Below are positions 7,019 to 16,710 of a stretch of 34,658 bases of DNA, in pieces. How positions within the stretch are numbered: the first letter of the stretch is position 1; every line of letters begins with the position of its first letter. The notes under the pieces were generated by a model. It had not been told where the DNA came from. It ran no database searches and saw nothing but the letters and a program-made list of their open reading frames with translations. This stretch comes from Candidatus Nomurabacteria bacterium RIFCSPHIGHO2_01_FULL_41_71 (GTDB lineage: Bacteria > Patescibacteriota > Minisyncoccia > Phycocordibacterales > UBA9973): the NCBI GenBank assembly GCA_001785355.1, contig MFTQ01000007.1, positions 1 through 34,658 of the forward strand, in the 5' to 3' direction. A program made the position numbers and the translations under genes.

Positions 7019-8236
7019 CTACTTCAAAAAATTCCTGCCGCGAAGGTTTTTATGATAAGAAATTGCGAATCGGTGCGCCTCGCTGTTTGCTAGCAAAATT
7101 GCTGATTTGTGCTGTTTTATTAATTTTTCATCGCCAATTATGGATTTGGGTTTGTGGCGTTCATCTTTTATCAGAGCTACCGTTCCAATATTTAAGTTCA
7201 ATTTTTTCAAAACTTTTTTTACCACATTCAATTGGGCGATTCCACCGTCAACAACAATCAAGCTGGGGTAAGCCCATTCTTTGTGCGCCAGACGTCTCTC
7301 CAAAATTTCTGCCAACGCACCTGTATCATTTATGTTATTTTGCGTTCTGATTTTGAATTTTTTATATTCTCTTTTTTTTATCTCTCCATTCTCCACGACA
7401 ACCATTACCCCCACCATATTTTTGCCTCCCATGTGAGCGATATCGTAGGCTTCGATGCGGTAGTTTGGGTCCCCCCTCTCCTTTTCAAGGAGAGGGGGGG
7501 AGTAAGGTAAATCTTTAAGCAAAGCAATATCATTAATATGATCCAAGGCAAAGATCTGATTGCGAATTTTAGCTGCCAATTCAAAATTTCCGGCTTTTGC
7601 TTCTACTTTCATTTCTCTTTTTAAATTCTGCAGAATTTTTTTCTTTTTGCCGCTAAAAAACAATTTCAGATTTCTGATGTCTTTTTTATACTTTTCTATA
7701 CCTTCCTTATTTGAAATACTAGGCACCAAGTTTACCTGTCTATAAAACTCGTAGCTGGTTTTTGATTTGTCATCCAAATATGGAAAAATTTTTCTAATTA
7801 TTTTCAGCGCTTCTTTTAATTGACTCCCGTTGGTATATGGCCCATACATCTTGTTCAACAATGAGGGGAGAACATTATAACCTCGCACGATTAAAACTTT
7901 CGGCAACTTTTCCTGCGTAATACAAACATAATTCCAACTCTTGTCATCCTTGGCGTCCGTATTGTATTTGGGCTGATATTTTTTAATTAAGTTTGCTTCT
8001 AAAATAAGCGCCTCCAAGACAGAGTCCGTCACGATCCAATCAATTTCATCGGCCTCTGCCGCCATTTTCTCCACAAGCGGCCCCCTCATGTCAAAGAGTC
8101 CCTTTGACATATAGCTTCGCACCCTATTTCGGAGCGAAGTGGCTTTGCCGATATACAGAATATGGCCGTTTTTTTTAAACAAATAGACGCCGGGTTTATC
8201 TGGAATATTTAATTTTTTAATTGACTCAATTTTCAT
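7019..8236 (-). CDS. uvrC: excinuclease ABC subunit C, short form lacking the C-terminal HhH region
   Basis: GIY-YIG (KPGVYLFKKNGHILYIGKATSLRNRVRSY), UVR motif, YRIEAYDIAHMGGKNMVGVMVVVENGEIKKREYKKFKI; ends NSEAHRFAISYHKNLRGRNFLK. Confidence 0.9.
   Translation of the reverse strand: MKIESIKKLNIPDKPGVYLFKKNGHILYIGKATSLRNRVRSYMSKGLFDMRGPLVEKMAAEADEIDWIVTDSVLEALILEANLIKKYQPKYNTDAKDDKSWNYVCITQEKLPKVLIVRGYNVLPSLLNKMYGPYTNGSQLKEALKIIRKIFPYLDDKSKTSYEFYRQVNLVPSISNKEGIEKYKKDIRNLKLFFSGKKKKILQNLKREMKVEAKAGNFELAAKIRNQIFALDHINDIALLKDLPYSPPLLEKERGDPNYRIEAYDIAHMGGKNMVGVMVVVENGEIKKREYKKFKIRTQNNINDTGALAEILERRLAHKEWAYPSLIVVDGGIAQLNVVKKVLKKLNLNIGTVALIKDERHKPKSIIGDEKLIKQHKSAILLANSEAHRFAISYHKNLRGRNFLK
7471..7499. 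repeat. palindrome inside uvrC
   Basis: CCCCCCTCTCCTT-TTC-AAGGAGAGGGGGG, 13-bp perfect stem, encodes SPPLLEKERG in frame. Confidence 0.85.
8088..8110. repeat. palindrome inside uvrC (family A)
   Basis: ATGTCAAAG-AGTCC-CTTTGACAT, 9-bp stem; near-identical to a uvrA palindrome at 12410-12430. Confidence 0.8.
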
Positions 8237-10277: not shown

Positions 10278-12893
10278 CTATTTACGGAGAGCTCTTTTTA
10301 AGTATTTCCCCGTGTAGGAATTTTTATTATTCGCCACTTCTTCCGGTGTGCCTTTGGCCACCAGGTTGCCGCCGTGGACTCCCCCTTCCGGGCCGAAGTC
10401 GATAATATAATCCGAGCTTTTAATGATGTCTAGGTTGTGTTCTATCAAAACAACAGTATTGCCTTTGCTGACAAGCTTATTCAAAACTTCCAGAAGCTTA
10501 TGCACATCATCGTAATGTAGCCCGACAGTCGGTTCGTCTAAAAGGTAAATCGTTTTTTCTAAGTGTGGGCGATAAAGCTCGCTGGAGATTTTTACTCTCT
10601 GCGCTTCTCCGCCGGAGAGAGTGGTGGCGGATTGGCCAAGCTCTAAATAACCCAAGCCTACATCCATAAGGGTTTGCAATCTGTCGGAGATAGCCGGAAT
10701 ATCTTTGAAAAATCGCAGCCCTTCCTCTACCGTCATATGCAATACCTCGTAAATATTTTTCTTTTTATATTTCACTGTAAGTGTTTCTTTATCAAAACGT
10801 TTTCCTAAACAAACATCACAGGTAACATACACAGTCGGCAAAAAATGCATTTCCACCGCGATCATGCCGTTCCCTTCGCAAGCCTCGCACCGGCCGCCTT
10901 TGACGTTGAAGGAAAAACGGTTGGCCTTCCAGCCGCGCAGACGCGCTTCTTCGGTCAAAGCAAAGAGGTCGCGGATGTGAGTAAAGGTGCCGGTGTAAGT
11001 AGCGATATTTGAACGCGGGGTGCGGCCAATCGGAGACTGATCTATCAGAATGGCGCGGGAGAGATATTCCGTCCCGGAAAAAGAAGCGCAATCAAAAACT
11101 TTCGCCGCGCGATATCTGCGCTCGAGCCGGGCTTGCAAATTTTTATAAAGAATCTCGTACATGAAAGAACTTTTTCCGGAGCCGGAAACGCCAGTGATCG
11201 CGGTCATTACCCCAAGAGGCACTTCCACATTCAAATTATTGATATTGAAAATTTTCCCGCCCGCAACACGAAGCGCTCCTTTGGCATAACGGCGTTTTTT
11301 AGGAATTTCTATTTTTTCCTCTCTTCTAAGATAAGCAAGCGTGCGTGAATTATTTGTATTTTTTCGAGTGGTTAATAATTCTTCCAGATACCCGGAAACA
11401 ATAATCTCCCCTCCATGTATTCCCGCCTTCGGCCCGATATCCACGATGTAGTCTGAAGCGTAAATAGTGTCTTCATCGTGCTCGACAATCAAAATCGTGT
11501 TGCCCAAATCACGAAGATTTTGCAATGTTTTTATAAGCCTGTCATTATCTCGCTGATGGAGACCTATTGTCGGCTCATCAAGAACATAAAGAGCTCCCAC
11601 CAATCGAGAGCCAAGCTGGGAGGCCAGACGAATGCGCTGGGCTTCTCCGCCGGAAAGAGTGTTGGCCTTGCGGGAGAGTTGTAAGTAATCCAGGCCCACA
11701 TCCAGCATAAATTGCAACCGGGCTTCAATTTCTTTAACCACTGGTAAGGAAATTTCTTTCTCCTGCTCCGAAAGTTTAAGATTTTTGAAAAAATTATGCG
11801 CGTCTTTTATGGAAAGAGAAGAAAGTTCTAAAATATTCACTCTCCCCGAGGCAAGACCTAGGGACTTTTGCTTTTTAATATTTGCCCCTAGGTCTTGTCT
11901 CGGGGAAGCAGTCAAAAAAACATTCAGTGCTTCCACGCGCAATCGCGCGCCGTGGCAAGAATCGCACAGCTCTTCCCCCATAAAATATTTTGAACCGAGG
12001 CCGTTGCAGGCGGGGCAAGCCCCGTAAGGAGAGTTGAAGGAAAAAAGCCTTGGCTCGACTTCCGGGAAAGAAAAGCCGTCGTTCTTGCAGGCGAATCTGG
12101 CGGACATGATGAATTCTTCATCATTGATTTTTACTATAACCAAACTGTCTGATTCAATTAAGGCTCGTTCAATCGCTTCCGAAAGTCGTATCCTTGAATC
12201 TTCTTTTTTCAGTCCGTTAATTAAAAAGCTGTCCACCAAAACATCAATATTATGCGCTTTGGTTTTTGAAAGAATAATTTTCTCGCGAAGCTTTTTCATC
12301 ACACCATCCAAACGAATTTCGGAAAATCCCTTTCCCAGCAAATCGTAAAGCAATTGATAATATTCTCCTTTGCGCCCGCGAACCACCGGAGAAAAAACGC
12401 TGACTTGCGTGTCAAAGATGCCCTTTGACACTGATTTTTTATCAAAGGGCATCTTTGACAAAACAAAATTCAAAATTTCTTCGTTGGAAAGTTTTTTTAT
12501 TTCTTCCCCGCATTGCGGACAATACGGATGCCCGATACGCGCATACATCACCCGCAGATAATCATAAATTTCCGTGATAGTGGCTACTGTCGAGCGCGGA
12601 TTGTTGGAACGGGACTTCTGGTCGATGGAAATGGCTGGCGAAAGCCCTGTGATTTCATCTACATCCGGCTTGGGCATTTGATTCAGAAACTGCCGCGCGT
12701 AGGAAGAAAGCGATTCCACATAGCGTCTCTGTCCTTCGGCAAAAATGGTATCAAAAGCAAGTGAACTCTTCCCGCTTCCCGAAACGCCAGTAATGGCAAT
12801 CATTTTATTCCGCGGCATCTCCACGTCAATATTCTTGAGATTGTGTGTACGTGCGCCCTTTACTATTATTTTATCTATGTTTTTCTCTTTCAT
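10278..12893 (-). CDS. uvrA: excinuclease ABC subunit A
   Basis: [37 protein letters not shown], two ABC signatures ([36 protein letters not shown]), zinc-binding [10 protein letters not shown]. Confidence 0.95.
11843..11906. repeat. inverted-repeat element inside uvrA, in frame
   Basis: CCCCGAGGCAAGACCTAGGG (11844-11863) pairs with CCCTAGGTCTTGTCTCGGGG (11886-11905), 19/20 matches. Encodes [21 protein letters not shown]. Confidence 0.9.
12409..12460. repeat. two facing family A palindromes inside uvrA, in frame
   Basis: TGTCAAAGATGCCCTTTGACA (12410-12430) and inverted copy TATCAAAGGGCATCTTTGACA (12440-12460). Encodes [17 protein letters not shown]. Confidence 0.9.
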
Positions 12894-12986: not shown

Positions 12987-13018
12987 TGTGCTAGGTGTGC
13001 TAGGCAAGACCTAGCACA
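12987..13018. repeat. dispersed palindromic repeat at the uvrB 3' end
   Basis: TGTGCTAGG TGTGCTAGG CAAGA CCTAGCACA; overlaps the uvrB stop codon; copy of 5801-5832 with the loop in the other orientation. Confidence 0.8.
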
Positions 13019-15110
13019 TACTGACCCGCGTTTTTAATACTCCAATTTCGTCTCTTAGGATCGCTGCCGTTTCAAAGTCTAATTCCTTTACAGCTTTGTT
13101 CATTTCTTTTTCTTTCAATTTTATTATTTTTTCATAACTAAATTTTCCTTTGCCGAATACCTGCAAGTCTAAAGAAAGTTCTGTATTCACCGCCTTGCTA
13201 TGTTCGCTCTCCAACTCTTCCGTAATATCTTTTATTTTTTTGATAATCGTCCTGGGAATGATGCCGTGTTTTTTATTATGGGTAAGCTGGATATCACGCC
13301 GTCTTTTTGTTTCCCTGAGCGCATTCGCTAGCGCTTCAGTCATGATATCCGCATAGAGAATAACTTTCCCCTCACTGTTACGAGCCGCGCGGCCGATAGT
13401 CTGGATAAACGCTGTTTCGGAACGAAGAAAACCGGTTTTATCGGCATCTAAAATGCCTATGAGCGCAACTTCCGGCAAATCCAGTCCCTCGCGCAGAAGA
13501 TTTACCCCGACCAAAACATCAAAATTTCCTTTTCTAAATTGCGTTAAAATTTTAATTCTTTCCATGGTCTTTATATCGCTATGCAAATACTCGGCTTTGA
13601 TTTTTTTATCCTTAAGATAAAAGGAAAGATCTTCCGCCATTTTTTTCGTCAATGTAGTCGCCAGCACCCGAAAACCCTTTTTGATTGTTTTCTCTGTCTC
13701 TGAAATAAAATCCTGAATTTGGCCGGGGTAGCGAACATGCTCAAAGGAGTCTTCGCTGCGACCAGAAAGTGCTTGCCCTCCCAGGACAGAGTGCAGACGA
13801 CGGTGAGCATGTTCGCTACCCCGACCTTCGGAAACAGGCCGCACTATCGTCTCTGGATCTACCAATCCCGTCGGTCGAATTATTTGTTCAATAATTTGCC
13901 CGTTTGAGCTATGTTCCTGCTCTCCTGGAGTGGCGCTGGTATAAATCACCGGTCCGATGCGTTTTTCAAATTCCTGATATTTCAAAGGCCTATTGTCTTT
14001 GGCGGAAGGCAGGCGAAAACCGTATTTCACAAGAGTATTTTTGCGCGAAGCATCTCCGGCATACATGCCCTGGAGTTGGGGGAGGGTAACGTGAGACTCG
14101 TCAATAATAGTTAAAAAATCGTTTTTAAAATAAGACAATAGAGTTTCCGGTGGTTCACCTTCGCGTTTACCGGAGAGGTGCCTGGAATAATTTTCAATAC
14201 CGCTACAGTATCCAATTTCTTTCATCATGGCCAAGTCATGGTTTGTTCTGCGTTTTATTCTTTCAGCTTCTAAAAACTTTCCTTCTTTCTTGAATTTTTT
14301 TAACTCAACTTTTAATTCTTCTTTTATATTTTTTAGCGCCAATTTCAATCTTTCTTCTTCGGTAATAAAATGTTTAGCCGGAAAAATAAAAAGGTTTTTT
14401 TCTTCTTTAATAATTTGCGAAGAAATGGGATCGATTTTTATTATTCTGGAAATCTTGCCCAGAAAGAGCTCTATCTGGTACATTATTGTTTCGGATACCG
14501 GCATAAGCTCCACCCGCGAACCCAGTGAACGAAATGTGCCAGACTTCAAATCCGCATTAGTGCGCTCAAAATGTATTTCGATTAATTTTTTCATCAAAGT
14601 CGTACGATCCATCTTCATCCCCACTTCGAGTTTTAAATTCACTTTTTCATATTCTTCCGGAGAGCCCAAGCCGTAAATACAGGAAACCGAAGCGACAATG
14701 ATCACATCTCTCCTGGTAAGTAACGCTTGAGTAGAGGCATGGCGAAGCCGATCTATTTCTTTATTAATGGATGCGTCCTTTTCGATATATGTATCGGAAG
14801 CGGGCATATAAGCTTCCGGTTGGTAATAATCATAGTAAGAAACAAAATAATGCACCGCGGCATCTGGAAAAAATTCTTTGAATTCTTGCGCCAGCTGAGC
14901 GGCCAGAGTTTTGTTGTGAGCAATCACCAGGATCGGCTTGCCATACTTCGCAATCACATTCGCCATTGTAAATGTCTTGCCGGTTCCCGTGGCCCCGAGT
15001 AATGTTTGTACTTTCATGCCCCTCCTTAACCCTTCCATAAGCCCTGAAATAGCCTTGGGTTGGTCTCCCGCAGGATTAAATTGACTTTTTAATTTAAATA
15101 CAGAGGCCAT
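13011..15110 (-). CDS. uvrB: excinuclease ABC subunit B
   Basis: GATGTGKTFTMANVI, YYDYYQPEAYMPASDTYIEKD, TIDESHVTLPQ, LREGLDLPEVALIGILDADK, C-terminal UVR motif. Confidence 0.95.
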   Translation of the reverse strand: MASVFKLKSQFNPAGDQPKAISGLMEGLRRGMKVQTLLGATGTGKTFTMANVIAKYGKPILVIAHNKTLAAQLAQEFKEFFPDAAVHYFVSYYDYYQPEAYMPASDTYIEKDASINKEIDRLRHASTQALLTRRDVIIVASVSCIYGLGSPEEYEKVNLKLEVGMKMDRTTLMKKLIEIHFERTNADLKSGTFRSLGSRVELMPVSETIMYQIELFLGKISRIIKIDPISSQIIKEEKNLFIFPAKHFITEEERLKLALKNIKEELKVELKKFKKEGKFLEAERIKRRTNHDLAMMKEIGYCSGIENYSRHLSGKREGEPPETLLSYFKNDFLTIIDESHVTLPQLQGMYAGDASRKNTLVKYGFRLPSAKDNRPLKYQEFEKRIGPVIYTSATPGEQEHSSNGQIIEQIIRPTGLVDPETIVRPVSEGRGSEHAHRRLHSVLGGQALSGRSEDSFEHVRYPGQIQDFISETEKTIKKGFRVLATTLTKKMAEDLSFYLKDKKIKAEYLHSDIKTMERIKILTQFRKGNFDVLVGVNLLREGLDLPEVALIGILDADKTGFLRSETAFIQTIGRAARNSEGKVILYADIMTEALANALRETKRRRDIQLTHNKKHGIIPRTIIKKIKDITEELESEHSKAVNTELSLDLQVFGKGKFSYEKIIKLKEKEMNKAVKELDFETAAILRDEIGVLKTRVSMC
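13721..13826. repeat. about 106-nt inverted-repeat element inside uvrB, in frame
   Basis: Perfect 20-bp arms CGGGGTAGCGAACATGCTCA (13724-13743) / TGAGCATGTTCGCTACCCCG (13804-13823), 22/23 including the flanks. Confidence 0.92.
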
Positions 15111-15878: not shown

Positions 15879-15951
15879 GCGCCCATAGCTCAGCTGGTAG
15901 AGCAGATCCCTCTTAAGGATAAGGTCGGGGGTTCGATCCCCTCTGGGCGCA
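15879..15951 (+). tRNA. tRNA-Lys (anticodon CTT)
   Basis: GCGCCCA/TGGGCGC acceptor, D arm GCTC..GAGC, loop CTCTTAA, T arm GGGGG-TTCGATC-CCCTC, discriminator A; no encoded CCA. Confidence 0.92.
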
Positions 15952-15955
15952 CTAT

Positions 15956-15982
15956 ATAAGGAAGTCTGACTTCCTTAAAAAG
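15956..15982. repeat. left hairpin repeat flanking the RAYT gene
   Basis: ATAAGGAAGTCTGACTTCCTTAAAAAG, identical to 16684-16710; contains AAGGAAGTC-T-GACTTCCTT. Confidence 0.95.
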
Positions 15983-16006
15983 TTAAAAGATGTTAATATC
16001 ATTAAT

Positions 16007-16687
16007 ATGAGAGTTGAAAATCATACGATTGGTTCAATTATGCATATTGTAAAAAGGGGTGCTCGAGGTATAGACATTACTGCAGATTTATCAGATAGAG
16101 TGCGGTTTAAGCGTTTGCTTTTTTATGTGAACGACTTATATCAAGATAATAATTTCGGAACCGCCATAGATACTCTTGAATTCTTTGAAAGACCAAAAAC
16201 ATGGCCTGATCGCGAGCCCCTAGTCAACATTTTGGCTTGGACATTAGTACCTAATCATTTTCACTTAATTCTGGAGGAAATACGAGATAGTGGAATAGCA
16301 AAATTTATGCAACGTTTATGTGGAAGTATGTCATCTCATTCAAACGCAAAATACAAAACTTCAGGAAGCTTGTTTCAGGGAGCATATAGGGGGAAAGTTA
16401 TAACTACCGATTCATACTTGAGGCAAGTCTTTTGTTACGTCATTATAAAAAATGTATTCGAACTACACCCACGTGGATTAAATTATGCAATAAAAAATTT
16501 TGATGCGGTTTGGCGGTGGGCATTAAAATATAAGTCTTCGAGTTTTGCGGATTCTGTTTTAAAAACTGGGTCCCCTATCCTTACAGAACACGAATTATTT
16601 AAAGATATCTCTGATTCAAAAAAGTTTAAAAAGGAAGCTTTAGAACTTTTAAAAATTCATCAAAACTTCGCAGAACTTGAGAAATAA
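16007..16687 (+). CDS. REP-associated tyrosine transposase (RAYT), Y1/IS200-like HUH family
   Basis: MHIVKRGARGIDITADLSDRVRFKRLL...WTLVPNHFHLILEE (HUH motif HFH)...SLFQGAYRGKVITTDSYLRQVFCYVIIKNVFEL. Flanked by identical hairpins. Confidence 0.88.
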   Translation: MRVENHTIGSIMHIVKRGARGIDITADLSDRVRFKRLLFYVNDLYQDNNFGTAIDTLEFFERPKTWPDREPLVNILAWTLVPNHFHLILEEIRDSGIAKFMQRLCGSMSSHSNAKYKTSGSLFQGAYRGKVITTDSYLRQVFCYVIIKNVFELHPRGLNYAIKNFDAVWRWALKYKSSSFADSVLKTGSPILTEHELFKDISDSKKFKKEALELLKIHQNFAELEK

Positions 16688-16710
16688 GGAAGTCTGACTT
16701 CCTTAAAAAG
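16684..16710. repeat. right hairpin repeat flanking the RAYT gene
   Basis: Identical to 15956-15982; includes the stop codon of the RAYT gene and of the convergent minus-strand gene. Confidence 0.95.

Follow-up and report, generated by a model that had tools for sequence, protein, structure and literature searches.

A RAYT-like transposase gene between copies of a short palindrome, and in-frame palindromes in protein genes of a reduced Patescibacteria genome

Results

A RAYT-like gene lies between two hairpin repeats beside tRNA-Lys

The window, by which we mean the whole stretch of 34,658 nucleotides analysed here, contains a gene for a Y1/HUH transposase located between a tRNA-Lys gene and a conserved gene on the opposite strand (Table 1). 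An earlier note on this DNA had described identical 27-bp repeats around this gene, and both copies of the repeat, ATAAGGAAGTCTGACTTCCTTAAAAAG, were indeed recovered. Its core is a 21-bp palindrome, TAAGGAAGTCTGACTTCCTTA, and its occurrence is well beyond chance, as a search with the 19-bp core at up to three mismatches gave four strand-wise matches in the real window against 0.01 in the shuffled window. Both copies fold into a hairpin with a 9-bp stem and a 3-nt loop, and this fold beats that of nearly all shuffled sequences. In agreement with the note, the left copy begins 4 nt past the 3' end of the tRNA-Lys(CTT) located by ARAGORN, and the right copy provides two stop codons from within its palindrome, i.e., the TAA of the transposase gene (16685-16687) and the TTA of the convergent gene (16703-16705). 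The proposed 'holA-like' identity of the convergent gene could not be confirmed, as no Pfam match was obtained at E ≤ 0.001.

Table 1 Features of the window at and around the transposase locus
Feature	Position	Strand	Remarks
Intergenic palindrome, RAYT family on contig C8	5809..5833	+	
Palindrome of the C13 RAYT family inside uvrC (7019-8236)	8089..8109	-	No net length change compared with relatives
Two palindromes of the C13 RAYT family inside uvrA (10278-12893)	12410..12460	-	Hypervariable loop
C8-family palindrome	12995..13019	-	Overlaps the 3' end of a 699-aa (UvrB-like) ORF, 13011-15110
tRNA-Lys (CTT)	15879..15952	+	ARAGORN; adjoins the left copy; adjacency to the convergent gene conserved in genus mates
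Left repeat copy	15956..15982	+	21-bp palindrome core at 15957-15977
RAYT-like Y1/HUH transposase gene, 226 aa	16007..16687	+	Pfam Y1_Tnp, alignment, fold match 4ER8
Right repeat copy	16684..16710	+	Palindrome core at 16685-16705; holds the stops of the RAYT and convergent genes
Convergent conserved gene, 215 aa	16703..17350	-	In 56 of 60 genus genomes; no Pfam match

What is actually repeated is the 21-bp palindrome, because the flanks of its copies elsewhere in the genome are unrelated. Moreover, the convergent gene already terminates in TTA(A/G)AAAGC in relatives; the AAAAAG of the right copy therefore belongs to the convergent gene, and the 27-bp identity overstates the repeat. The earlier note had read this identity as a sign of recent activity or insertion; while the identity is real, it is the one observation from which recent activity could be read. 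As judged by the centre base, the two palindromes of the window are direct and not inverted, a call that the near-symmetry of the palindrome makes weak. A GTAG/GTGG foot was found neither at the window palindrome nor was any conserved tetranucleotide seen adjoining its five copies in the genome.

The protein matches Pfam Y1_Tnp (E=2.5e-5), and the NHFH motif by which the note had assigned it to the Y1-type HUH transposases is intact (N83-H84-F85-H86). Together with Tyr144, these residues are invariant or nearly so across 14 aligned sequences. The window protein is divergent, sharing 23-33% identity with the other family members aligned, and its match to NCBIfam REP_Tyr_transpos (29.2 bits) lies under the curated cut-off of 80; the IS200 NCBIfam gave no match, and neither did a sequence search of the PDB. 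An AlphaFold2 model obtained from 14 family members reached a mean pLDDT of 80 and a pTM of 0.80. Its top fold match in the PDB, at moderate scores, is 4ER8 (E=4.9e-6), a RAYT bound to a REP hairpin, with the IS608 and ISDra2 transposases ranking next. A low-confidence loop of the model, about residues 45-68, coincides with the region that matches the internal palindromes of other RAYTs (see below). Judging from the intact catalytic residues and a predicted fold nearest to 4ER8, the window protein is RAYT-like.

The tRNA-Lys junction is variable among genus mates

In nearly all genus mates examined, the tRNA-Lys and the convergent gene adjoin each other. The spacer between them ranges from 21 bp to more than 1 kb and contains varied cargo, and no HUH ORF or RAYT was detected at this junction in the genus mates examined. 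Thus, the RAYT is a lineage-specific arrival at a variable tRNA-Lys junction. The earlier note had suggested a search for an empty site after the tRNA-Lys. The absence of the RAYT from the junction fits that idea, but neither a precise nor a single-repeat empty site was found in the genus mates, whose spacers do not align; we attribute the lack of a single-repeat site to the variability of the spacer. The tRNA-Lys beside the convergent gene has the anticodon CTT here, compared with TTT in all genus mates in which ARAGORN located such a tRNA; in many mates the tRNA is on the opposite strand.

RAYT genes are paired with palindromes of their own

The genome containing the window comprises 634 kb in 22 contigs and encodes 11 Y1 genes by Pfam, or 12 by a profile built from these proteins. 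All but one of the 12 are bracketed by a palindrome of their own, each palindrome being different; at least 11 RAYT-palindrome pairs coexist in this genome. Stretches taken from six genomes of the genus contain 41 RAYTs, of which 32 were paired with matching palindromes. Among 594 control ORFs, 150-350 aa long, 10 were paired, and seven of these ten bear RAYT-type palindromes. Pairing extended beyond the genus, to 13 of 18 readable RAYT loci in the rest of the order, and the RAYT family is present in 39 of 60 genera sampled from the order. The similarity of RAYTs was weakly but significantly correlated with that of their palindromes across genomes (Mantel rho 0.25, p=0.002); the window genome alone gave no Mantel signal. 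The earlier note's view of a RAYT with cognate palindromes is thus supported by this pairing, by further copies in the genome and by a REP-bound RAYT as best fold match.

Positioned precisely between the convergent genes, the right copy gives both of their stops and folds stably, so that the hairpins could be host signals such as bidirectional terminators, alongside which the RAYT landed by accident. This explanation is already disfavoured and we regard it as highly improbable, since each of the 11 RAYTs has a different palindrome, pairing is rare among control ORFs and copies also occur within coding genes.

Within the window genome, each palindrome family includes one RAYT gene and several solo palindromes. 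In another genome of the genus (G003, L185:6836-9790), we observed two RAYT genes of the same length, 2.26 kb apart, with 100% aligned identity, identical match scores and matching palindromes at both. Such a duplication, the lack of the RAYT at the junction in genus mates and the similarity of the modelled fold to IS608 and ISDra2 transposases would all suit an IS200/IS605-like element that moved whole beside the tRNA-Lys, its ends being the two palindromes and the remaining copies solo ends or decayed elements. We consider this unlikely, given the single RAYT and several solo palindromes per family in its own genome, the rank of 4ER8 above the IS transposases and the lack of an IS200 NCBIfam match.

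Palindromes are enriched in their own genomes and often lie within genes

The RAYT palindromes have 81 extra copies in those parts of their own genomes that were sampled, compared with 18.9 expected from their density in other genomes, a tally that may count some copies under two related palindromes. For the window genome, about 418 kb of the 634 kb were surveyed as stretches, and copy numbers are lower bounds. The genome search proposed in the earlier note was productive, with the window palindrome (family C7) occurring at five places at 0-1 mismatch; the sister genomes yielded one match among 99 relatives, which we judge coincidental. This match (G028) is located inside an ORF at the peptide KEVGLPLGNLTSQ, which we take to be typical of reverse transcriptases.

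Of the 40 extra copies in the window genome, 28 fall within ORFs of 100 aa or more; ORFs of this size cover 88% of all stretches surveyed. Elsewhere in the genus the corresponding numbers are 1 of 15 (G003) and 4 of 16 (G037), and since most extra copies there lie outside long ORFs, the intragenic bias is not general. A 3-mismatch match in purL (C4:54610) was judged to be chance, as it shows no gap compared with relatives; the 28 nevertheless include it. At their starts, contigs C4 and C5 (L005:1-50 and L006:180-230) share a dispersed sequence, GCACAGAGGCGCTTTAGCGCGCGGRGAACGCTAT, possibly another repeat that broke the assembly.

The window palindrome is found in frame inside the essential genes glmS, atpB and guaA, the guaA copy differing by one base that turns an in-frame TAA into TAC. 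Palindromes of other families lie in frame in leuS, purD (two sites), dus, tig, pyrF, rseP, pbp2, rnhA, sua5, purL, uvrC and uvrA, and one is found at the end of rplC; purD and some of the short gene names were partly assigned by our own reading of the sequences. Five of the 11 paired RAYT genes of the window genome contain their own palindrome inside their own ORF, in four cases ahead of the HUH motif. Internal RAYT palindromes in other genera, at residues 53-74, are likewise located ahead of this motif.

A comparison with the nearest relative, G037, reveals what these copies add to the proteins. LeuS is longer by 14 residues, corresponding to a 42-bp in-frame inverted doublet whose flanks are continuous in G037, i.e., a clean insertion. 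PurD has gained 8 and 13 residues at its palindrome sites and GlmS 6, while AtpB is longer than in relatives by about 4 residues and GuaA by 3. UvrC shows zero net length change, and its palindrome-bearing peptide YMSKGLFDM aligns with YFSKDLIDT of relatives. Thus, most tested copies are net in-frame insertions in length-variable loops, but some replace native residues. The unchanged length of UvrC would agree with palindromes made locally, by template switching that perfects quasi-palindromes with no insertion. We consider this very unlikely, because LeuS, PurD and GlmS have each gained between 6 and 14 residues net at such sites, and because unrelated genes share one and the same RAYT-linked sequence.

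Several further features of these sites were observed. At the uvrC site, where native codons are replaced by the palindrome, the genus mate G022 carries a similar palindrome of the RAYT type at the corresponding position. The UvrA loop (residues about 145-163) is hypervariable in length within the genus, with inserts that differ between species. G037 contains large, different inserts of its own in the same loops of Dus (L133) and trigger factor (L143), which suggests that these are shared tolerant sites. The two C8-family palindromes of the window bracket the uvrC-uvrA stretch, and an extra half-arm, TGTGCTAG, is found next to the hairpin in both of them as well as in most copies of that family.

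Discussion

Taken together, our analysis makes it quite likely that the locus is a REPtron-like unit, in which a RAYT gene lies between two copies of a palindrome recognised by its product. Most probably, a hairpin formed by the palindrome as a single strand is bound by the RAYT and cut through the HUH/Tyr144 site, with Tyr144 performing the attack. The cut palindrome would then be rejoined at new sites, singly or as doublets, and selection in a gene-dense genome would remove insertions that break reading frames. Under such a filter for open frames, many of the surviving copies would encode short peptides, read in frame and placed in the variable loops of essential proteins. We propose this route as the likeliest on the basis of the known chemistry of TnpA-REP proteins (PMC6006769, PMC3733652).

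Intragenic REPs, REPs inside tnpA-REP genes and the protein-coding palindromes of Rickettsia are already published (PMC3733652, PMC6006769, PMC3767692, PMC10969869). In the open-licence literature we did not find the combination described here, i.e., a single reduced genome with many RAYT-palindrome pairs in parallel, mostly intragenic copies and no GTAG foot on the window palindrome, nor any relevant paper on RAYTs or coding palindromes in Patescibacteria/CPR. The combined pieces tie a candidate enzyme to palindromes that are now part of proteins. For the entry of palindromes into protein genes, each family here has a candidate enzyme, at least 11 times in 634 kb, so that a single small protein and a few short oligonucleotides would suffice to address the question. 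Short peptides added to conserved proteins are, moreover, relevant to annotation and to protein evolution in reduced genomes. As a speculation that we ourselves hold to be rather doubtful, the RAYTs might act here as a standing machine that writes short palindromic peptides into essential proteins, with every RAYT seeding the palindrome that belongs to it into coding sequence, including the gene that encodes it; RPE-type protein-coding palindromes seen elsewhere could stem from the same process after loss of the transposase.

The closest known systems are REPtrons, which combine a RAYT/TnpA-REP with REP palindromes (Nunvar 2010, PMC2817692; Quentin 2018, PMC6006769). As in these, a Y1 transposase has one copy of its palindrome family on either side, there are several RAYTs with a separate family for each, and copies are dispersed, some as doublets. 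REP insertions in frame inside tnpA-REP genes are described for subclass 2.4, generally between HuH and Y, whereas the internal copies here are mostly ahead of the HUH motif (PMC6006769). Further differences are the lack of a GT[AG]G hairpin foot on the window palindrome, a tetranucleotide also missing from subclasses 2.6 and 3 (PMC6006769), the near-perfect palindromes that are mostly direct by centre base in contrast to inverted flanking REPs, and the location of the dispersed copies, which in this genome are mostly in ORFs whereas REPs are mainly extragenic. As foot, inverted orientation, a mainly extragenic location of the copies and a score above the NCBIfam cut-off are all lacking, we call the unit REPtron-like in its working and encoded by a RAYT homologue.

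TIR-associated tyrosine transposases (TIRYTs, PMC3733652) resemble the locus in that a Y1 transposase lies between repeats without a GTAG tag, and some of their TIRs are self-complementary. However, the terminal inverted repeats of TIRYTs are long and in many cases contain GGGGWSAS, whereas the copies here are 21-bp palindromes and mostly direct.

Intragenic REPs are known from several species, in frame and as single copies or dimers, in genes including uvrA and tRNA synthetases (PMC3733652). The palindromes described here are similarly short and in frame, occur singly or as dimers in uvrA and tRNA synthetase genes, and their termini likewise provide stop codons. The REPs in that study are mostly intergenic and GTAG- or CGTC-tagged, and they differ from the many parallel families, each with a linked RAYT, in one 634-kb genome. 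Rickettsia palindromic elements (PMC3767692, PMC10969869; RPE-4/6 in PMC3733652) share with our palindromes that they are protein-coding and have been put into unrelated protein genes with the frame unbroken. By description they are set apart in length, at about 150 bp compared with units of 19-42 bp here. Finally, CGTC repeats including RPE-4/6 come without a linked transposase (PMC3733652), whereas the palindromes here have a linked RAYT.
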